DNA of 36,749 nt from a virus, in the IMG/VR virus record IMGVR_UViG_3300030616_000012, positions 1 to 36,749 of that record. One strand, written 5' to 3'. Shown piece by piece: positions 16,361 through 35,746 of this stretch. Position 1 is the first letter of the stretch. Each line of letters begins with the position of its first letter. The position numbers and the translations under genes were made by a program. The notes beneath the pieces were generated by a model that was not told where the DNA came from, ran no database searches, and worked only from the letters and a program-made list of their open reading frames with translations.

Positions 16361-17977
16361 ATGGCGCATGCAATGATAACGAAGGAGTATGAGCCTTCGA
16401 ATCCAGTTGACGGTAATTTCTGGTATAAGCCAAGCGCTGACCAGGTATTCATGCGCATTGCTGGATCATGGACACCGATTGCAACGGATGAAGCGATCCC
16501 CATGCGTATTCCTTTAACGTTCCTTATCAGAGGGGTTGACAGAAGCGACAATATTCTCATAAGCTCATTATCAAAGGTTGATGCAATCACATCCCAGGTT
16601 GACACGCTGTCATTTTATCTCGATGATGAGGAAGGGACTGTTCATCCAAGGCAGGGCGAGGAAATATTTGTATTCAAGAAGAAGGCAGGGGATGTTGATG
16701 CCCAGCTATGGTTTGGCGGCGAGATTGACAGCGCCGAACCATTTGACCGTGCGCCTGGGCAGCACAAGCTGACATATTCCGTGAAGTGCGTTGATTTCAG
16801 CAAGCGACTGAATAAAGAACTTGTTACCGAAACATACGAGGATAAGACAGTTAATTATATAATAGCCGATATGATAGACACCGAAGCTGAAGAATTTACA
16901 TACAATAATGTTGACTGCGGTATAACAATTGACTTCATTGCTTTTGACCGCAAGCCATTATTTGAAGCCCTTGAAGAACTTGCAGGGCTTGTCGGTTATG
17001 ATTTTTATGTCGACTATGAAAGGGATGTTCATTTCTTCAGTAAAACAGCCGCTTACGCGCCATATTCTATAACCGAAAATATTGCAACAACCGGACATTA
17101 TAAGAATTTCAAAATCAAGGTTGACAAATCCCAGCTGCGTAATAGAATAACGGTTCGCGGCGGCAAAAGCCTGACTGCTTTTGCTGATGATATACAGGAA
17201 GCTGATGGTGAACGCACAGTATTTAATCTTGCGTATATGCCACGCGGCGATGTCAAGGCATACGTTGACACTGGCGGTGGGTTCGTTGAAAAGACAGTCG
17301 GCATTGACAATATAGATTCAGCCGGCTTTGATTTTGTTGTGAATGTTCAGGAAAAATGCTTGAAGAATCTTGACCTTGCGAAGCTCACAGCTGGGCATAT
17401 TTTAAAAGTTACCTATGACCGCCAGGAACAGATCGTCGCTGGTGTCAGGGACAAGGGCAGCATTGCTGCCATAAAAGATATAGAAGGCGGGACTGGTCAA
17501 TATAGATTTTATATTGTTGATGAAAATATTGACACTGTTGCCGCTGCGACTGAACGCGGGAAAGCTGAACTTGCGATATATTCAAATCCAATTATTGCTG
17601 GTTCATATTTTACTGACCAAGATGGATATAGGTCAGGACAATTATTGCCGATTGACATGCCTTCCTGGGGCTATGCAGACAGGCAATTCCTTATTCAAAA
17701 AGTAACGTCAAAACTTAGAAGCGACGGAACGACATTTGAATATCAAATCGTATTCGCAACAAGATTAAAAGGCTTGACGGATTTCTTGAAATATTTATAT
17801 GACCAGGGCCAGAAAATAATTATCAGGAATGAAGAAGTTGTGCATGAACTGGTTGAATTGCCCGCAGAATCATTGCCAATAACAGAAGGAACGCCGGTAC
17901 TAACGTTATTCACGCCGCCATATAAGTGGGGTGTTGATGCTGATCAGGGGGTATGGAATGAAGCAGCCTGGGGCTAA
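16361..17977 (+). CDS. Tail hub / baseplate protein (538 aa)
   Basis: ATG 16361 is chosen because it follows the preceding gene by one base; the frame is open to 16208 but that part overlaps. Residues ~8-40 repeat the W-motif (VDGNFWYKPSADQVFMRIAG). From ~50 the sequence reads like a gp27/gpJ-type hub: LTFLIRGVDRSDNIL, then KLTYSVKCVDFSKRLNKE, FEALEELAGLVGYDFYVDYE, LRNRITVRGGKS and FLIQKVTSKLRSDGTTFEYQ. Hub proteins close the tail tube and carry fibres. The C-terminus is a short W-rich tail (PPYKWGVDADQGVWNEAAWG). Confidence 0.75.
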   Translation: MAHAMITKEYEPSNPVDGNFWYKPSADQVFMRIAGSWTPIATDEAIPMRIPLTFLIRGVDRSDNILISSLSKVDAITSQVDTLSFYLDDEEGTVHPRQGEEIFVFKKKAGDVDAQLWFGGEIDSAEPFDRAPGQHKLTYSVKCVDFSKRLNKELVTETYEDKTVNYIIADMIDTEAEEFTYNNVDCGITIDFIAFDRKPLFEALEELAGLVGYDFYVDYERDVHFFSKTAAYAPYSITENIATTGHYKNFKIKVDKSQLRNRITVRGGKSLTAFADDIQEADGERTVFNLAYMPRGDVKAYVDTGGGFVEKTVGIDNIDSAGFDFVVNVQEKCLKNLDLAKLTAGHILKVTYDRQEQIVAGVRDKGSIAAIKDIEGGTGQYRFYIVDENIDTVAAATERGKAELAIYSNPIIAGSYFTDQDGYRSGQLLPIDMPSWGYADRQFLIQKVTSKLRSDGTTFEYQIVFATRLKGLTDFLKYLYDQGQKIIIRNEEVVHELVELPAESLPITEGTPVLTLFTPPYKWGVDADQGVWNEAAWG

Positions 17978-23258: not shown

Positions 23259-23287
23259 TTGACATTCCCTGACATATCTGTTATAAT
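23259..23287 (+). promoter_or_regulatory. Promoter P1, consensus sigma-70
   Basis: TTGACA (23259-23264), a 17-bp spacer and TATAAT (23282-23287) match the consensus at 12 of 12 positions. A second TGACA at 23270 sits exactly 10 bp after the first, inside the spacer, and could be an operator half-site. Predicted transcription start is near 23294. It drives the first early operon (zinc-ribbon genes and nuclease). Confidence 0.9.
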
Positions 23288-23293
23288 AGTAGT

Positions 23294-23411
23294 ACAAAAC
23301 CAAGTGGGTATAAAAATGACCGGCGAAAATCACAAAATTAAATTAAACCAAATAACCCCTGAAGGACAGAGTTTGTCCTGCCGGTCATTCTCTGCCTTCG
23401 GGGGCTTTTTA
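23294..23411 (+). ncRNA. Structured leader or small RNA 1 downstream of P1
   Basis: About 117 nt run from the P1 start to a T-run. Arm a (23315-23324, AATGACCGGC) is complementary over 10 bp to a' (23380-23389). Arm b (23356-23365, CCCCTGAAGG) pairs with b' (23395-23404) with one wobble. The order a-b-a'-b' is interlocked: a pseudoknot or two competing folds. A 6-bp hairpin AGGACA/TGTCCT (23363-23379) abuts a'. No ORF of note lies inside. It may be an attenuator, an antitermination element or a discrete sRNA; it shares topology and a CAAGTGG 5' segment with RNA 2. Confidence 0.65.
23356..23410 (+). terminator. Terminator b/b' of RNA 1, also end of late operon
   Basis: Stem CCCCTGAAGG/CCTTCGGGGG (10 bp, one U-G) is followed directly by CTTTTT. 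The loop is long (29 nt) and contains arm a'. Transcripts reading through from the lysis genes would meet the same terminator, so it likely ends the late operon as well as controlling P1 transcripts. Confidence 0.65.
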
Positions 23412-23424
23412 TAAGGGGGGCACA

Positions 23425-23589
23425 TTGATTAGAATTTGCATGGAATGCGGAACGAAAATGGGCGAGAAGGAACCTCTTGAAGATAAAAGCGAAACGCACG
23501 GGCTTTGCGACAAGTGCCTGAAAATTCAATTGAGGATTGAAGCATTTAATAATGCGTATCTTCATAAGCCATTACTAATAAGGGGATAA
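23425..23589 (+). CDS. Small zinc-ribbon protein (54 aa)
   Basis: TTG 23425 follows AAGGGGGG by 4 bases; the next ATG would remove the first Cys region. CMEC (residues 5-8) and CDKC (28-31) are 19 residues apart, with the pattern ICMECGTKMGEKEPL then HGLCDKCL. It is the first gene of the P1 operon and may be a small regulator or nucleic-acid-binding early protein. No specific family named. Confidence 0.65.
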   Translation: MIRICMECGTKMGEKEPLEDKSETHGLCDKCLKIQLRIEAFNNAYLHKPLLIRG

Positions 23590-23591
23590 CC

Positions 23592-23786
23592 ATGTACGCA
23601 AGGACACGGGATGCATATTCATTCGCAAGGTATTTGGGGCAAAGCAATCGAATCCGGCGCTGCCTTGTCTGTGGTGAGCCGCTGGAAATTGACCAGGGCG
23701 ACGGGATTGCTATTGATCCCGAAGATCCCGATTCGGACTTTGTGTGCGATGAACGGTGCATGGAACGGTATCAAGAATTAATATAA
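23592..23786 (+). CDS. Small Cys-containing early protein (64 aa)
   Basis: It starts two bases after the previous stop with a GGGGAT site. CLVC (24-27) and CDERC (52-56) suggest a zinc-binding site joined by an acidic loop (DPEDPDSD). The N-terminal half is basic and aromatic. Probably a small DNA- or protein-binding early factor. Confidence 0.62.
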   Translation: MYARTRDAYSFARYLGQSNRIRRCLVCGEPLEIDQGDGIAIDPEDPDSDFVCDERCMERYQELI

Positions 23787-23796
23787 AGGGGGAAGC

Positions 23797-23982
23797 GTGA
23801 ACGATTTCAGCAAAATGATATTTGACACAGCGGTTGCAATCAATAGGGCATACGCAAGAGGGCTGCAGGAAGGGAAAAGACTTGCAGAGAAAGAGGTATA
23901 TGTACCGGATGAAATGGCAGAACAGATTCACCTGGACAGGATTGAGGAACAGAAAAAATTGAAAAGGGATGGGGTGGAATAA
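23797..23982 (+). CDS. Small helical early protein (61 aa)
   Basis: GTG 23797 follows AAAGGGGGAAG. The sequence is one long amphipathic helix with charged ends (INRAYARGLQEGKRLAEKE), no Cys. It overlaps the nuclease start by one base, so the two are probably translated together. Function unknown. Confidence 0.6.
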   Translation: MNDFSKMIFDTAVAINRAYARGLQEGKRLAEKEVYVPDEMAEQIHLDRIEEQKKLKRDGVE

Positions 23983-26126
23983 TGCCATTACGCTGGTTTA
24001 TCTGCCCTGACAATACACGGATTGAATTCAAGGACTGCCTGAAGGAAGGCGGTTGCCGTATGGGTAGCCGGTGCGCTTCCAGGTCATATCTGCACATGGT
24101 ATCGCAAGACAGGGTGTGGACCGGCAAGCCGAGTTGCACGCAGTTGATACAGGGCACGATGTGCGCCTTCCTGAAGATAACAAAGGATTATGCGGTGTCG
24201 CCTGATGACCGCGCCTTTGCTATTCACGGGACCAAAGGGCACAAGAATCTTGAAAACGCCGGTGCTGATGATGAATATTCCGAATTAGAAATGCGGTTCA
24301 AGGAAGGGGATATTTCAGGGATTGCCGATGCTATCGAAAAAGAATGCGGCAGGATAATATTGAGTGATACGAAAACATCGGGATCGTTTAAAGTTGCCAA
24401 GGCCCTGGGCATAGTAATCAAGAAGGAAGAAACCGGCGAGGTTTACAAGTCAGGCAAGCGCAAGGGCGAACCGAAGATGCGGAATGTCATGGTCAGGGAT
24501 GAATCAGCCATTGACCGCTGGGAATGGGAATATCAGACAAATTTCTATCGTATGGAATATGAACGTGTTACCGGCAAGAAGATTGACGAAATCCGAATCA
24601 TGTGCGTTGTCAGGGATGGCAACACATATATTGCCAGGGGGCGCGGCGTATTCCGTAATGTCTATTATTTTAATATTCCTATCATGGAAGATAACGCTGT
24701 CAAGATATATTTTCAGACAAAAAAATTGCAGTTATTCAAGGCATTAAAACAGGGTTACTGGAATGATGCCTGCGATGCCAAGGAAAATTGGGATGGCGTT
24801 AAGTGTTCCAGGTATTGCGAGGTAGCAGAATATTGTAAATATGGGAAATATTTAAAAATCCAAAGAGAGGTGGAAGAAATGGCTATCAAGAATCTGTCAG
24901 AGGTCAGAAGGTTGCCAAGGCTTGGCAAAATCAGGCTTGGCATTAAGAAGTTATCTGCGAAGGGCAAGGAATATCCGGCTGAAGTTGATTACTTCATACT
25001 GGATCCCCAGACACCGATTGAAACAGAGAACAAGAAATTGATTGATGCGTTTCACAAGTTATATGGTGACAAGCCGAAGCAAATCAATATCATGTTCCCT
25101 GTTGCCGATAAAGACATATTTTTTGCGCAATTCTACAAGCGCTATGGTTCAGGCGCATCCCTGAAATGCAAGGGCGACGGAGTGATTGCGCATTGCGGCA
25201 CGGATGAATTTGCCAAGGGCCTGAAGGTTACAGGCAAATCAGACTTGGGGCTTCCTATCGTTGAGTGTCATGGCAAGGAATGCCCGTTCTATCAAAGCAA
25301 GCAGTGTTCGGAAGTCGGCACGCTTCAGGTATTGTTGCCCGAATTACCAGGTGCAGGGGTGTGGCAGATTGCAACCGGCTCATTCCATAGCATAGTCAAT
25401 ATCAATTCATGTATTGATTATATCAGGGCGGTTGCGGGCCGTGCGCACATGCTGCCGTTGAAACTTGAACGGCGGGAACAGGAAATCGCCTATGAAGGCA
25501 AGAAAAGCAAGCATTATATCCTTCATATCAATATGGATTTTGCGCTTGCTGACCTTCAGAAATTTGCATTGATTGATCCTTCGAAGGTGCTGCTTGAATT
25601 GCCTGAACCGGCAGTCACGGCAGAGGATATTGAAGTGCTGCCTGGTGGCGTTGAAGTTGTCAATAAAAATACAGGGGAAGTGACCGATCCGGCAGACACG
25701 GAAAGGCAGAAACCGCAGAATAAGGTTGAGCAGACGGCTGATGATGCGCCTTGGGATGAACCATCCGAAGAAGCCGAAACAGCGGGACCTGAACCAAAGC
25801 AGGGACCGGCAGCAACAGGCAAGCCCACGCCTGAACAGTTGGAAAAGCAGATTCAGGAAGAATACGCGAATGCCCTGGCGAAATATCCTGATATTGAAGG
25901 GGCGCACGTTGAGGTCATTGCAAAGAAAATCAAGGGGCTGCTGAAGGATGCCGGATATCTTGGCAAGAAAAAGCCTGGCGGGATGAATTACGAAACCATG
26001 CTGATTAAGTCTATGAATGACCAGGCAGAGAAGTACAGCAACCTGACCAGGAAGGAATTGACGATTTTATACGCACGCCTTGCGGGCGAAAAGGGTGATC
26101 CGACGGGGCTTTGCGTTGCATTCTGA
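23982..26126 (+). CDS. Cas4/RecB-like nuclease fused to Gp3-like (RDF-type) protein (714 aa)
   Basis: Residues ~1-290 have PD-(D/E)XK RecB-type motifs in order: GTKGHKNLE (~82-90), GIADAI (~113), SDTKT (~128) and YQTNFYRME (~185). A Cys cluster (DACDA then KCSRYCEVAEYC, ~262-283, plus N-terminal Cys residues) follows, as in Cas4/AddB iron-sulfur nucleases. From ~307, RRLPRLGKIRLGIKKL and EVDYFILD match the Gp3-like/recombination-directionality-factor-like family, with Cys pairs (CHGKECPFYQSKQC) that may bind metal. The last ~150 aa are low-complexity Pro/Glu plus a helical domain. A strong GAGAGGTGGAAG site precedes an in-frame ATG at 24879, so the second part (415 aa) can also be made alone. 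Likely role: phage recombination and replication. Confidence 0.7.
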   Translation: MPLRWFICPDNTRIEFKDCLKEGGCRMGSRCASRSYLHMVSQDRVWTGKPSCTQLIQGTMCAFLKITKDYAVSPDDRAFAIHGTKGHKNLENAGADDEYSELEMRFKEGDISGIADAIEKECGRIILSDTKTSGSFKVAKALGIVIKKEETGEVYKSGKRKGEPKMRNVMVRDESAIDRWEWEYQTNFYRMEYERVTGKKIDEIRIMCVVRDGNTYIARGRGVFRNVYYFNIPIMEDNAVKIYFQTKKLQLFKALKQGYWNDACDAKENWDGVKCSRYCEVAEYCKYGKYLKIQREVEEMAIKNLSEVRRLPRLGKIRLGIKKLSAKGKEYPAEVDYFILDPQTPIETENKKLIDAFHKLYGDKPKQINIMFPVADKDIFFAQFYKRYGSGASLKCKGDGVIAHCGTDEFAKGLKVTGKSDLGLPIVECHGKECPFYQSKQCSEVGTLQVLLPELPGAGVWQIATGSFHSIVNINSCIDYIRAVAGRAHMLPLKLERREQEIAYEGKKSKHYILHINMDFALADLQKFALIDPSKVLLELPEPAVTAEDIEVLPGGVEVVNKNTGEVTDPADTERQKPQNKVEQTADDAPWDEPSEEAETAGPEPKQGPAATGKPTPEQLEKQIQEEYANALAKYPDIEGAHVEVIAKKIKGLLKDAGYLGKKKPGGMNYETMLIKSMNDQAEKYSNLTRKELTILYARLAGEKGDPTGLCVAF

Positions 26127-26135
26127 TATTTGACA

Positions 26136-26160
26136 GGCAGTCGGTTGGAAGCCGGCTGCC
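26136..26160 (+). other. Intergenic hairpin without T-run
   Basis: GGCAGTCGG and CCGGCTGCC form a 9-bp stem with one wobble and a 7-base loop, directly after the nuclease gene. No T-run follows, so it is not a standard terminator. It could stabilise the upstream mRNA or be a processing site before the next ribosome site (AAAGGA, 26161-26166). Confidence 0.5.
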
Positions 26161-26173
26161 AAAGGAATCATAA

Positions 26174-26341
26174 ATGAAATATTATATCTGGTGTGTCCAC
26201 TGCGGATGGGAAAAGGAAGTTGACAAGGGTTATGTCATTGACCATGTGTGCCCGAAATGTCATTCGCCGAAATTGGTAATTGATGAGGATATTAATGGAA
26301 CCAATCAAATTCAAAGCCGCTGTCCATGCAGTCAGGGTTGA
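26174..26341 (+). CDS. Small zinc-ribbon protein (55 aa)
   Basis: ATG 26174 follows AAAGGA. CVHC (7-10) and CPKC (26-29) with 15 residues between form a rubredoxin-like ribbon. The C-terminus adds CPC. It overlaps the next gene by 47 bases in another frame. Function unknown; it resembles other mini ribbons in this genome only in Cys spacing. Confidence 0.6.
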   Translation: MKYYIWCVHCGWEKEVDKGYVIDHVCPKCHSPKLVIDEDINGTNQIQSRCPCSQG

Positions 26342-26504
26342 TAATGTCGGGGAAGGGAAAATCACGTTCCAGGTCCCCTTGTCTGACCGTGACAAGATTA
26401 TTCTGCTGGCAGCCCTGACCGAAACGTGCCTGCAAGTTACGGTTGAAAAGGACAGCGAAACGGGGATTGTTATTGAAGAAGATAACCTGGGGGATATGGG
26501 ATGA
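26295..26504 (+). CDS. Small hypothetical early protein (69 aa)
   Basis: ATG 26295 lies 5 bases after GAGG; earlier in-frame starts at 26280 and 26283 are possible. The order PIKFKAAVHAVRVDNVGEGK then LSDRDKIILLAALT and VTVEKDS suggests a compact alpha/beta protein similar in style to small recombination-region phage proteins. It overlaps the DUF5131 gene by 4 bases. Confidence 0.55.
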   Translation: MEPIKFKAAVHAVRVDNVGEGKITFQVPLSDRDKIILLAALTETCLQVTVEKDSETGIVIEEDNLGDMG

Positions 26505-27130
26505 ATAAGACTAAAATTGAATGGTGCGATTATACCTGGAATCCGGTTATTGGTTGCAAGCGCGGATGTTCGTATTGTTACGCAAGGAAGATGAATGACC
26601 GGTTTCATTTCATATCAAAATGGGATGAGCCGGAATTGATTATTGATAGATTAAAAAATCCAAGAATGCCGAAGAAACCATCAAGGATATTTGTTGGTTC
26701 AATGTCAGATATATGTTATTGGCATGATTTCTGGGTTCTCGATGTGCTTAAAATAATCAATGAATATCCGCAACATACATTTATATTTTTGACAAAAGAT
26801 TCGCTTGCTTATGATAGACATAAATTCCCGTCAAACTGCTGGCTTGGCGTATCAGATATAGGCGACGGGAACCCAACAAAGACATTTTATACATATCAGG
26901 ATAATAAATTCGTATCATTCGAGCCGCTATTATCACGCCCAGAGCATACATTCAGATTCTATGTAAATCATGGTATCAAGTGGGTTATTGTCGGCGGCTT
27001 AACTCCGATGAATAAACATAAAAAAGAGTGGGTTGACGAAATAATTACATGGTGCAGGGCTGCACTCATTCCCATATTTTTGAAGCCCAATCTGCACTAT
27101 CCTGAAAAAATACAGGAGTTTCCGAAATGA
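26501..27130 (+). CDS. DUF5131 (phage Gp37/Gp68-like) three-Cys-motif protein (209 aa)
   Basis: The start TKIEWCDYTWNPVIGCKRGC is diagnostic of the DUF5131/Gp37-Gp68 family, with a radical-SAM-like CKRGCSYC motif at ~19-26. Downstream family blocks are present: SRIFVGSMSDI, THTFIFLTKD-like QHTFIFLTKD, WLGVSD, FVSFEPLL and KWVIVGG. The substrate is unknown. The gene is small for the family (often ~230-270 aa) and more AT-rich than the nuclease gene upstream. Its usual genomic partner TcmP is not seen in this window. Confidence 0.82.
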   Translation: MNKTKIEWCDYTWNPVIGCKRGCSYCYARKMNDRFHFISKWDEPELIIDRLKNPRMPKKPSRIFVGSMSDICYWHDFWVLDVLKIINEYPQHTFIFLTKDSLAYDRHKFPSNCWLGVSDIGDGNPTKTFYTYQDNKFVSFEPLLSRPEHTFRFYVNHGIKWVIVGGLTPMNKHKKEWVDEIITWCRAALIPIFLKPNLHYPEKIQEFPK

Positions 27131-27363
27131 AACAAACAATCAAGCAACAGATTGTCGAGCATCTGCGGTTTTCAAGGGAACCACTGGCACTGCATGAGTT
27201 TCCATATCTTGGTGTGAATCAGTGCAGCCTAAAGACAAGGCTTTGGGAATTGGAAGAATCCGACATCGTTGTGTGCCGGAAAAGAAAAGACAAGCCATTC
27301 AGTGAATTCTATCTTGTAGTCAGAAGGAAGGAATTCGAAGGACAGATGGGGCTGGGGATATGA
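27127..27363 (+). CDS. Small winged-helix-like protein (78 aa)
   Basis: It overlaps the preceding gene by 4 bases. The order QQIVEHLRFSREPLALHEFP, SLKTRLWELEESDIVVCRKR and a terminal beta strand FSEFYLVV suggests a winged helix-turn-helix. It is a candidate early transcription regulator. No Cys cluster or signal. Confidence 0.58.
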   Translation: MKQTIKQQIVEHLRFSREPLALHEFPYLGVNQCSLKTRLWELEESDIVVCRKRKDKPFSEFYLVVRRKEFEGQMGLGI

Positions 27364-27500
27364 AAACCGAACACTATTTTCCCGTATTTATTATGTTCTG
27401 CTATCTATGCGCGGCAATGGTTTATTTTTCAAAAGGGAATATCAAGCAGGGGCTTTACTGGATATTTGCGCTTGGGCTTGTCTGGGTGGTAACGTTTTAA
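27360..27500 (+). CDS. Small membrane protein, two helices (46 aa)
   Basis: ATG 27360 overlaps the previous stop. Two hydrophobic segments (YFPVFIMFCYLCAAMVYF and LYWIFALGLVWVVTF) flank a short basic loop SKGNIKQG. The TAA overlaps the methyltransferase ATG by one base. Small two-helix proteins with this FPVF...CYLCAAMVY pattern are common in phage early regions. Function unknown. Confidence 0.65.
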   Translation: MKTEHYFPVFIMFCYLCAAMVYFSKGNIKQGLYWIFALGLVWVVTF

Positions 27501-28750
27501 TGAATAAATTAATCAATGACGATTGCCTGGTTGCCTTGAAACAGATACCTGACAACAGCGCGGATTGTATTGTAACCGATCCGCCTTATGGTTACAGTTT
27601 CATGGGCAAGGGCTGGGACAAGGTTGTTGTCAGCGTTGATATATGGGCTGAATGTTTACGGGTATTAAAGCCAGGAGCATTTGCCTTTATTATGTCAGCG
27701 CCACGCCAAGACGTTTTATCTCATATGATAGTCAACCTTGAACAAGCCGGATTCGTTACAGGATTTACGAGTATGTATCATTGTTACGCAAGCGGATTCC
27801 CAAAGGCAAGCAATATCGGCAAGATGGTTGATAAGAAGTTGGGGAATAAAAGGGAGGTTACGGGTACAGGGAAAGCGGGAAGTGGTATGAATAAGATTAA
27901 GGGATTCGGGGTTAATACAACAAAAGGTGGCGAAGCAACAACCGAGTGGGATGAAACAAAAGGCAATTCCTCACTAGAAGGCAGTTACGGCGGATTCCAG
28001 CCCAAGCCAGCCGTCGAGATTATCCTTGTAGTAATGAAGCCGATAACAGAAAAGACCTACGTTGACCAGGCGATGAATAATAAGAAGGGTATAACGTGGC
28101 TTGACGATGGCAGGATTCCGTATGAGAGTGATAAAGACAAGAATTTTAATATGAAAGTCAGGCATAATTCAAAAGATAATGTATGTTATTCCGGTGGTAG
28201 TATTGGGCAAGGCGATGCACAAGGGAAAGACACAGGCAGATTCCCTGCCAATCTACTGGTAAGTGATGATTGCCTGAATGATGGGAAGGAATGGGCTGGC
28301 GGTAAAAATAACACGCAGGCAATGTCAATATTTGGCAATGATATGAAAAATAGAAAACAAGCAAAAAGGGATTCCGACTCCGGCTCATTCTCACGCTATT
28401 TCTCATTAGACGCTTGGTTCAATGATAAGATTAAACAGTTAAGCCCAGAGGTACAAAAGACATTCCCATTTCTGATAGTACCAAAGGCGGCGAAGTCAGA
28501 GAAGAATGAGGGATTAAAAATATCCAACAAACATCCAACAGTTAAAAGTGTCAAATTAATGAGTTATTTAATAGCCATTGGCAGCAGGCCAGGGGATGTC
28601 ATTCTTGATCCCTTTGCTGGTTCAGGAACGGCGGGTGTGTCAGCCACGGCCCAGGGCAGGGAATACATATTGATAGAACGCGAGAAGGAATATTTCGAGA
28701 TATTAAAGGCAAGGACAGCCGAATCAGAAAAACAGGGAAGGTTATTTTGA
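27500..28750 (+). CDS. DNA methyltransferase, beta class, probable N6-adenine (416 aa)
   Basis: ATG 27500 is chosen over 27407, as conserved sequence begins MNKLINDDCLVALKQI. Motif IV TDPPYG is at ~29-34; a long variable target-recognition region follows; motif X (KHPTVKSVKLMSYLI) and motif I (DPFAGSGT, ~377-384) are C-terminal. The order IV-TRD-X-I defines the beta class; DPPY is typical of N6-adenine enzymes, though N4-cytosine is not excluded. It probably modifies phage DNA against host restriction. No cognate restriction enzyme is adjacent on the same transcript. Confidence 0.85.
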   Translation: MNKLINDDCLVALKQIPDNSADCIVTDPPYGYSFMGKGWDKVVVSVDIWAECLRVLKPGAFAFIMSAPRQDVLSHMIVNLEQAGFVTGFTSMYHCYASGFPKASNIGKMVDKKLGNKREVTGTGKAGSGMNKIKGFGVNTTKGGEATTEWDETKGNSSLEGSYGGFQPKPAVEIILVVMKPITEKTYVDQAMNNKKGITWLDDGRIPYESDKDKNFNMKVRHNSKDNVCYSGGSIGQGDAQGKDTGRFPANLLVSDDCLNDGKEWAGGKNNTQAMSIFGNDMKNRKQAKRDSDSGSFSRYFSLDAWFNDKIKQLSPEVQKTFPFLIVPKAAKSEKNEGLKISNKHPTVKSVKLMSYLIAIGSRPGDVILDPFAGSGTAGVSATAQGREYILIEREKEYFEILKARTAESEKQGRLF

Positions 28751-28753
28751 ATC

Positions 28754-28782
28754 TTGACAAATCGACATTTGTGTGATATAAT
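28754..28782 (+). promoter_or_regulatory. Promoter P2, consensus sigma-70
   Basis: TTGACA (28754-28759), a 17-bp spacer and TATAAT (28777-28782) match the consensus fully, with the same spacing as P1. The spacer contains CGACA and ACATTTGT, a small dyad. Predicted start is near 28789. It drives the second early operon beginning at 28913. Confidence 0.9.
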
Positions 28783-28788
28783 AGGGTA

Positions 28789-28899
28789 GAGGTCAAGTGG
28801 TATGAATCAAATCCAATTATTGAAAATCAGCAGGCGTACGGTTATGAATTCCACCAGGGTTCATATTCACTTGACCGACGTACGTCTGCTTTTTGTTTT
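28789..28899 (+). ncRNA. Structured leader or small RNA 2 downstream of P2
   Basis: About 111 nt. Arm a (28791-28806) pairs with a' (28860-28876): 9 bp GGTCAAGTG/CACTTGACC plus 6 bp TATGAA/TTCATA around a small internal loop. Arm b (28829-28840, AGCAGGCGTACG) pairs with b' (28879-28890) over 12 bp with one G-U, followed by TTTTTGTTTT. The order is again a-b-a'-b', with only 2 nt between a' and b'. The stem sequences differ from RNA 1 while the layout is kept, which argues for selection on structure. Confidence 0.68.
28829..28899 (+). terminator. Terminator b/b' of RNA 2
   Basis: A 12-bp stem (AGCAGGCGTACG / CGTACGTCTGCT) with a 38-nt loop is followed by T-rich TTTTTGTTTT. Formation may be regulated by the overlapping a/a' pairing. 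It would also stop transcripts arriving from the methyltransferase gene. Confidence 0.7.
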
Positions 28900-28912
28900 A
28901 TAGGGGTTGACT

Positions 28913-29392
28913 ATGGTATGGGTATTTAAACACGAAGAGGGTGATATTAGATTTCGCGATATGCAAGAAAAATATAAAATACAATCTTATCAAATGCCGT
29001 GGTTAAAGGATATGCGAAGTGTAAAACCAAGCAATAAATATGGCCCAGTATTTTTTGAAAACGAAGAAGATATAAAAAATTATATAATGGAGAATTGGAA
29101 ACATCTATTTGATTTTTGGATATGGACAACAGAATACAGAATAAACAGAGGAAATAAAAGAGTTGATGTTGTTGGTTATGATTTTAATATTGAGAAACCA
29201 TTAAAAAGTAATCGTAATTTTTATATGATAGAATTGAAATTCCATGAATACAGAAAATCAGACAAAGAACAATTGCAATATTATGTTGATAATGTTGATA
29301 TGTACGGCCCAGGTACATGGATGATACCGGTTGGCATATTAATAAATTATGAAAATCAATATTTAGTACCGAGAATTATACGCAAGGGGTAA
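28913..29392 (+). CDS. PD-(D/E)XK nuclease-like protein (159 aa)
   Basis: ATG 28913 lies 6 bases after AGGGG. The segment NRGNKRVDVVGYDF, then FYMIELKFHEYRKSD and QLQYYVDNVD gives D...E-x-K...Q, the catalytic pattern of DUF91/NucS-like or archaeal-type PD-(D/E)XK nucleases. N-terminal ~60 residues are aromatic and charged, without a clear domain. It is strikingly AT-rich compared with neighbours, suggesting separate acquisition. Possible roles are recombination, host DNA breakdown or defence. Confidence 0.6.
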   Translation: MVWVFKHEEGDIRFRDMQEKYKIQSYQMPWLKDMRSVKPSNKYGPVFFENEEDIKNYIMENWKHLFDFWIWTTEYRINRGNKRVDVVGYDFNIEKPLKSNRNFYMIELKFHEYRKSDKEQLQYYVDNVDMYGPGTWMIPVGILINYENQYLVPRIIRKG

Positions 29393-29395
29393 TTC

Positions 29396-29779
29396 GTGGC
29401 TTGGATTAAATGCGATGTTCTTATTAGAGAAAATAAAAAAATCCGTAAATTATGCGGATTGACTGGATGGAATACCTATGAATGTATTGGCCGCATGGTT
29501 GCACTATGGGCATGGTGTTTAAAAAACCAAGAGGATGGGTATTTAAGTGGGATGGATCCATTAGAATATCTTGATGATATAAAGGGTGATTTAAGTGCGC
29601 CAGCATTAGAAGAATATTTAATGCAATGTGGCCTTGTAGACCGTCGCCCTAAACGCATACACGACTGGTTGCAATTCGCTGACCGCTATTTAATTCGTAA
29701 ATATCAGAATAATCACATTCAAATATTACAAGAAATTTGGCAGAAACACGGCGAAGTCTATGGTGAACGCAAGAGATAG
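29396..29779 (+). CDS. DnaD-like replication/replisome organiser protein (127 aa)
   Basis: GTG 29396 begins MAWIKCDVLIRENKKIRKLC. The pattern of a W-I-K start, LTGWNTYECIGRMVALWAWC, NQEDGYLSGMDP, LVDRRPKRIHDWLQF and ADRYLIRKY follows the winged-helix N-terminal domain of DnaD/phage replisome organisers. It probably recruits the host helicase to the origin. It lacks the longer C-terminal DnaD domain, so it is either a minimal version or split. A hexamer-repeat array lies directly downstream, as expected for an origin. Confidence 0.6.
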   Translation: MAWIKCDVLIRENKKIRKLCGLTGWNTYECIGRMVALWAWCLKNQEDGYLSGMDPLEYLDDIKGDLSAPALEEYLMQCGLVDRRPKRIHDWLQFADRYLIRKYQNNHIQILQEIWQKHGEVYGERKR

Positions 29780-35628: not shown

Positions 35629-35654
35629 CCCTTCTCGCTTTTTCCTTCTGCCAG

Positions 35655-35692
35655 CCCTGGTGCTGTTTAATAGACGGCATCAGGGTTTTTTT
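35655..35692 (+). terminator. Intrinsic terminator at end of early operon
   Basis: CCCTGGTGCTG and CGGCATCAGGG (35655-35685) form an 11-bp stem with two wobbles and a 9-base loop, followed by seven T. It separates the early operon from promoter P3 and the terminase genes. Confidence 0.85.
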
Positions 35693-35695
35693 ATT

Positions 35696-35746
35696 TTGAC
35701 ACTTGCTGACATTATTATTGACATAATCCTGAATATGTTATATATA
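35696..35746 (+). promoter_or_regulatory. Promoter region P3 (late/packaging) with tandem TGACA
   Basis: TTGACA at 35718-35723 lies 17 bp before TATATA (35741-35746). An upstream TTGACA (35696) is followed after 5 bases by TGACA (35707), the same TTGACA-N5-TGACA layout as in P1. An inverted repeat ATTAT-TGAC-ATAAT (35714-35727) covers the -35 box and could be an operator. The -10 is weaker than in P1 and P2, fitting a regulated late promoter. Confidence 0.6.

Follow-up and report, generated by a model that had tools for sequence, protein, structure and literature searches.

We have analysed two leader modules, RNA1 and RNA2, in a virus record of IMG/VR (IMGVR_UViG_3300030616_000012); the whole record, with 36,749 bases, is called here the window. 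Structural genes occupy approximately 1–22 kb of it and two + strand gene blocks are found from 23.4 kb onward. Block 1 codes for zinc-ribbon-like proteins, a fusion of an exonuclease-like protein with a Gp3-like recombination directionality factor (RDF), a DUF5131 protein and a DNA methylase. Block 2 codes for a nuclease-like protein, a replication initiation protein, a methylase, YopX, NUDIX and small proteins. Because of these gene functions both blocks appear to be early operons. One module lies just ahead of the first gene of each; the features are collected in Table 1.

Each module starts with a perfect TTGACA-17-TATAAT promoter, P1 at 23259 and P2 at 28754. Both had been reported in an initial annotation of this DNA, and they are the sole perfect matches when both strands of the window are scanned. 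Each promoter is followed by a leader of about 115 bases, with two long complementary pairs in the order a-b-a'-b' and a T-run after b': the helices a:a' (helix 1) and b:b' are interlocked. In RNA1 a:a' has 11 base pairs (bp) and b:b' has 10 bp, or 15 bp with CAGAG/CTCTG across a one-base bulge. In RNA2 a:a' has 10 bp, extended to about 17 bp via TATGAA/TTCATA with a one-base bulge, and b:b' has 12 bp. These values are close to the stem lengths first proposed, 10/10 for RNA1 and 15/12 for RNA2. The stem sequences of the two modules are unrelated to each other. The cores of a, a', b and b' do not overlap, and competition is limited to their side extensions.

In both leaders the GC-rich b:b' helix and its U-run sit between the promoter and the first gene, and they are predicted to be an intrinsic terminator. 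The distance from the U-run to the first gene is approximately 14–18 nucleotides, too short for another promoter. Polymerase coming from P1 or P2 must therefore pass this predicted terminator in order to express the operon.

Table 1. Features of the two modules and the genes next to them (positions in the window)
Feature	Position	Strand	Remarks
P1 promoter	23259..23287	+	Perfect TTGACA-17-TATAAT, extended TG
Operator-like motif GACATATCTGTTA	23271..23283	+	Inside P1 spacer
RNA1 leader	23294..23414	+	Predicted +1 (inferred from -10) to just beyond T-run
RNA1 a	23315..23325	+	Helix 1, 5' strand
RNA1 b	23356..23371	+	Terminator 5' strand; 10 bp core 23356-23365, then CAGAG past bulge
RNA1 P3 hairpin GGACAGAGTTTGTCC	23364..23378	+	Competes with CAGAG extension of b
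RNA1 a'	23379..23389	+	Helix 1, 3' strand; within terminator loop, abutting b'
RNA1 b'	23390..23404	+	Terminator 3' strand; 10 bp core 23395-23404
RNA1 U-run	23406..23410	+	T5
First gene, early operon 1	23425..23589	+	54 amino acids, zinc-ribbon-like
Exonuclease-like/RDF gene	23982..26126	+	Exonuclease-like N-terminus fused to Gp3-like RDF; marker gene for relatives
P2 promoter	28754..28782	+	Perfect TTGACA-17-TATAAT, extended TG
Operator-like motif GACATTTGTGTGA	28764..28776	+	Inside P2 spacer
RNA2 leader	28789..28903	+	Predicted +1 (inferred) to just beyond T-run
RNA2 a	28791..28808	+	Core 28791-28800, extended to 28808
RNA2 b	28829..28840	+	Terminator 5' strand
RNA2 P3 hairpin	28843..28865	+	Competes with extension of a
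RNA2 a'	28858..28876	+	Core 28867-28876
RNA2 b'	28879..28890	+	Terminator 3' strand
RNA2 U-run TTTTTGTTTT	28890..28899	+	
First gene, early operon 2	28913..29392	+	PD-(D/E)XK-nuclease-like (weak match)
Replication initiation gene	29396-29779	+	After PD-(D/E)XK-nuclease-like gene

The arrangement stands out clearly from the background. When the window is scanned for a-b-a'-b' followed by T, the two modules are the top two structures, with scores of 52 and 51; the next one has 43. Not one of 2000 dinucleotide shuffles reached the leader's own score, either for RNA1 or for RNA2. Since a terminator helix could exist for its own reasons, we also ran a conditional test: the terminator was fixed, the 5' leader alone was shuffled 2000 times and its pairing with the terminator loop was scored. 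Shuffles paired as well in 9/2000 cases for RNA1 (p ~0.005) and in 1/2000 for RNA2 (p ~0.0005). In 1.63 Mb of phage loci there are four structures with a score of at least 44 and a promoter with at most two mismatches; there are none in shuffled sequences.

We searched for relatives through the exonuclease-like/RDF gene, which has 13 of them in IMG/VR and two in the genome collection. Just two of their records, L005 and L016, have a comparable leader. At L005 +9773 the promoter has one mismatch, the stems are a GACCTTGCGA / a' TCGCAAGGTC and b AACCCGTCT / b' GGGCGGGTT, the run is T5 and the leader is found about 230 bases upstream of the exonuclease/RDF gene. L016 is a Thiothrix metagenome-assembled genome: at +7083 it has a TCTGGACGGA / a' TCCGTCCAGA, b AGCCAG(TTT) / b' (GGG)CTGGCT and T6. 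A radical-SAM gene precedes this leader; 17 nucleotides after it comes a replication initiation gene and then one for a DnaB-like helicase. The replication proteins found after the leaders of RNA2 and L016 both match phrog_9474, one at each end of the profile, and do not align to each other. The conditional test gave 0/2000 for L005 and 29/2000 for L016.

None of the four members resembles another in stem sequence. What they have in common is the helix order, an a' which abuts b' (spacer L3, 0–6 nucleotides), a P3 hairpin between b and a', and an A-rich, G-poor linker between a and b (L1, 13–30 nucleotides, with 0, 1, 0 and 1 G). The proposal of a structure-conserved phage RNA is thus supported by L005 and L016, which show the same topology and genomic position with unrelated stems. 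The segment CAAGTGG(G)TAT, noticed at first as a shared 5' element, is indeed present in RNA1 and RNA2 and does not belong to the core: it is unpaired in RNA1 (23301–23311), part of stem a in RNA2 (28794–28803) and absent from L005 and L016. As a family signature it was also rejected, as a scan of the collection for a promoter plus CAAGTGG returned mostly unrelated sites.

Other searches for relatives gave little. RNA1 has no sequence homologue in the phage collection; the IMG/VR relatives reached carry unrelated leaders, with none that can be aligned to RNA1 or RNA2. Relatives sought through the terminase and the replication gene were remote only or none, and additional regions in the records of eight relatives contain no further convincing elements. 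In L003 a and b pairs follow a good promoter upstream of the exonuclease/RDF gene; read by eye, they lack a T-run and we have not counted them.

Leaders with a comparable layout are found in a wider set of phages. A strong promoter with GCTTTTT 90–120 bases further on occurs in 120 units, six of which score at least 42 for the topology, versus 0.2 in shuffles. Promoter, T-run and AGGAG were found together in 84 stretches, 66 of them distinct; again six score at least 42, versus 0.2 in shuffles. A significant complementarity of the 5' end to the loop is kept in the conditional test by L204, L270, L276, L201, L298, L311, L323 and L350; L248 is marginal. Two leaders with a high topology score, L015 +16185 and L241 +1634, were dropped because their 5' complementarity is due to chance (1617/2000 and 1437/2000), and L327 was rejected because its a:a' is itself the terminator. 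The sequence GCTTTTTGTT was tried as a conserved terminator tail: it has 10 sites in the scan, with the topology only at two which were already known. As a separate observation, L116 3052 (-) has a promoter with a long a:a' and a canonical terminator, GCCGC-TTCG-GCGGC. The 5' arm of this terminator has a second pairing partner upstream, and the whole looks like a conventional attenuator.

Two kinds of leader deserve a description. Those of L270 (1881–2022, -) and L323 (7680–7810, -) precede genes for NUMOD3/HNH-type endonucleases, and the leader of L358 is identical to that of L323. L270 and L323 have common loops (GATTTTTTATGTT; GTAnGCG; CGCnGAA), and pairing is kept in both stems in spite of different sequences: this points to compensatory change in an interlocked leader. 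The family is a different one from RNA1 and RNA2 and has no Rfam match. Its leaders also run from promoter through a-b-a'-b' and U-run to the gene start, with a at or next to the predicted +1; they differ by their conserved loops, absent from RNA1 and RNA2, and by an L3 of 8 nucleotides. In L005, L270 and L323 stem a starts at the predicted +1. In the second kind (L201 +4336, L248 +5526 and L204 +7196) a belongs to the loop of an additional hairpin at the 5' end; this loop and the terminator loop are complementary, and these leaders are possible loop-loop kissing attenuators. The wider leaders are architectures comparable to RNA1 and RNA2, with a likeness in layout rather than a demonstrated homology.

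As a control, 398 Bacillota genomes gave 20 distinct leaders with promoter, terminator and AGGAG. None scores at least 42; the best one has 39, and from its sequence we take it to be a T-box. The difference between 0/20 host and 6/66 phage leaders is not significant, as numbers are small, and we therefore do not claim phage specificity.

We favour the reading, to which we give about an even chance, that the two modules act in cis as transcription attenuators, one in front of each early operon, with the terminator contested by the interlocking 5' helix. From the computed promoters, helices, order, spacing, recurrence and energies we infer a start, a termination, a competition, a sign of the effect and a signal as follows. 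RNA polymerase would start at P1 or P2. Once a' leaves the polymerase, a would pair with it and form helix 1, of about 10–17 bp, with P3 beside it. After 2–14 more bases b' would be complete, and b:b' with the U-run would then make an intrinsic terminator with a' in its loop. As a' abuts b' and a:a' closes the loop which holds b, full winding of b and b' would be hindered as long as the 3' end remains in the polymerase: b' would need to make approximately one turn around a strand enclosed by the a:a' loop, and from the topology this should be slow. For this reason we favour a:a' as a kinetic anti-terminator: a proportion of polymerases, either constant or regulated, would continue into the operon. 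Termination would be favoured by whatever prevents a from pairing with a', for example pausing, binding of a ribosome or protein, or a change in polymerase speed. The stems of RNA1 and RNA2 have no common sequence, so a regulator is unlikely to recognise them by sequence; the input signal is more likely to come from timing, pausing, polymerase factors or ribosomes.

Calculated energies are in part consistent with such a competition. The stems a:a' and b:b' are estimated at -18.0 and -26.3 kcal/mol in RNA1 and at -23.0 and -19.6 kcal/mol in RNA2. When growing prefixes are folded, a:a' is the minimum-energy helix until 23399 in RNA1 and b:b' takes over at 23402; in RNA2 the corresponding positions are 28887 and 28890. 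Forced folds at full length (b:b' versus a:a') give -27.9/-26.8 for RNA2, -25.0/-23.3 for L005 and -32.4/-32.5 for L016: the nested states are nearly equal in energy. This is not the case for RNA1 (-38.2/-31.2).

Several points weigh against the attenuator reading. Constitutive termination would be conceivable, and so would partial termination that is not regulated. The phage group has just four members, and most relatives with the marker gene lack such a leader. Finally, a and b have no nucleotides in common: formally neither helix excludes the other, and they may therefore coexist as a pseudoknot. A simple, rough estimate in kcal/mol for the pseudoknot versus the terminator alone gives -29.2 versus -27.9 in RNA2, -26.4 versus -25.0 in L005 and -26.2 versus -32.4 in L016, so that the pseudoknot may be competitive in RNA2 and L005. 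In RNA1 the same estimate makes it less favoured (-23.9 versus -38.2).

The best of the alternatives starts from this coexistence: a:a', P3 and b:b' would form together as a pseudoknot-stabilised terminator, in which a:a' strengthens termination or protects the 5' end, and the operon would be mostly off from P1 and P2 until something unfolds the structure. In RNA2, L005 and L016 the three helices do not conflict with one another, an A-rich L1 with so few G suits a strand that crosses a helix, and a stem a which begins at the predicted +1, as in L005, L270 and L323, hides the 5' end. However, with an L3 of 0–6 nucleotides and a closed loop, full winding should be hard to achieve before the polymerase releases the 3' end, and in RNA1 P3 competes with the extended b. 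We judge this alternative unlikely, though it keeps some weight.

A stand-alone small RNA acting in trans, with its own promoter and terminator and the operon expressed by leak-through, was one of the three options of the initial annotation. The modules are in fact complete promoter-to-terminator units of about 115 nucleotides with stable predicted folds. Against it stand the first gene, only 14–18 nucleotides past the U-run with no other promoter, and stems which are not conserved; moreover, no 12-mer complementary to RNA1 or RNA2 is found elsewhere on the + strand of the window, host targets being outside this search. This option is less supported and rather improbable.

Ribosomes might also set termination by translating the leader. 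Short open reading frames (ORFs) start in stem a and cross the terminator, at 23316–23414 in RNA1 (32 codons) and 28802–28903 in RNA2 (33 codons); they remain open just past the U-run, RNA2 has GAGGT 8 nucleotides ahead of the ATG, and similar frames are found in L005, L016 and L270. By chance alone about a fifth of frames this long would be open, however, and in L005 and L270 the leader ATG is at or before the predicted +1. The ORF of L276 stops within the leader, L204 and L248 have none, and there is no common peptide. We have rejected the leader ORF as a feature of the class, and attenuation of this type has only a small probability.

The third option was an antitermination signal of the put type, acting on the polymerase from within the leader. 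The put sites of phage HK022 are two tandem hairpins which act as antiterminator without a terminator of their own. We take putL and putR to be twin structured RNAs directly downstream of two early promoters, as RNA1 and RNA2 are. The modules differ from them in being interlocked and ending in a U-run, that is, a predicted terminator, and an element read by the polymerase should keep its sequence, while these stems are unrelated within one genome: we find this option hardly credible. The regulated attenuator is thus the supported one of the three. An antisense RNA was rejected, as no promoter with at least 9/12 matches on the - strand reads across RNA1 or RNA2 within about 400 bp.

Attenuators such as trp/his, the T-box and the rep leaders of pT181 and pIP501 offer the closest comparison with the attenuator reading. 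They also have a promoter, a leader of about 100 nucleotides and an intrinsic terminator just before the first gene, together with an upstream helix able to form earlier in transcription. In the classical cases one strand serves both antiterminator and terminator, whereas in RNA1 and RNA2 the helices interlock (1:3, 2:4) with no common nucleotide. No input by leader peptide, tRNA or antisense RNA was identified for them. The ZTP, fluoride and preQ1 riboswitches likewise have an a-b-a'-b' pseudoknot beside a terminator in the leader; they have conserved ligand pockets, however, and RNA1 and RNA2 share none, so that a riboswitch is less supported. With the Rfam 15 covariance models there is no match at the gathering score; a relaxed threshold gives chance eukaryotic matches, none of them over the leaders. 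The literature searched, mostly open papers, describes pseudoknot riboswitches and attenuators generally and none with this layout, which is weak evidence of novelty. Provisionally, we consider the modules a variant of intrinsic-terminator attenuation.

Taking all these leaders together, we tentatively suggest, as a possibility which is itself doubtful, a widespread class of phage attenuators free of sequence constraints: the terminator loop would be complementary to the 5' end, and an interlocking helix would close before the terminator. Topology and timing would decide termination, without ligand, peptide or antisense RNA. Attenuators are usually recognised by conserved sequence or by strand sharing between terminator and antiterminator; leaders which conserve the interlocked topology alone escape covariance models and Rfam. 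If the class is real, it is an overlooked control point in early operons and in replication and homing-endonuclease genes of many phages, and a simple search for a strong promoter, a T-run and a 5' leader complementary to the terminator loop would find it. A physical question would become accessible to experiment as well: whether a terminator can wind at all with its 5' strand confined to a closed loop.

The spacers of P1 and P2 have in common GACATNTNTGTNA, which has no further exact match on either strand of the window. It looks like a putative shared operator for one DNA-binding protein; the two operons are therefore probably co-regulated at initiation too. A 16-base exact repeat, TCAAATCCAATTATTG, is present in the tail region (17582–17597) and in the linker of RNA2 (28807–28822), and may be due to chance.

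The marker gene has approximately 60–70% identity to several IMG/VR contigs, and in Bacteroides phage BKO1-3 its exonuclease-like and RDF parts are separate adjacent genes. Of the proteins of the window which were scanned, none was identified as an integrase. The terminase is divided between the ends of the record, with the large subunit at 30–1253 and, by reading, the N-terminal part at the right end; the record therefore looks like a permuted, near-complete genome. Ahead of the small-terminase gene, at 35653–35730, there is a strong canonical terminator followed by TTGACA-rich sequence: it is likely the end of early operon 2 plus a late promoter site.

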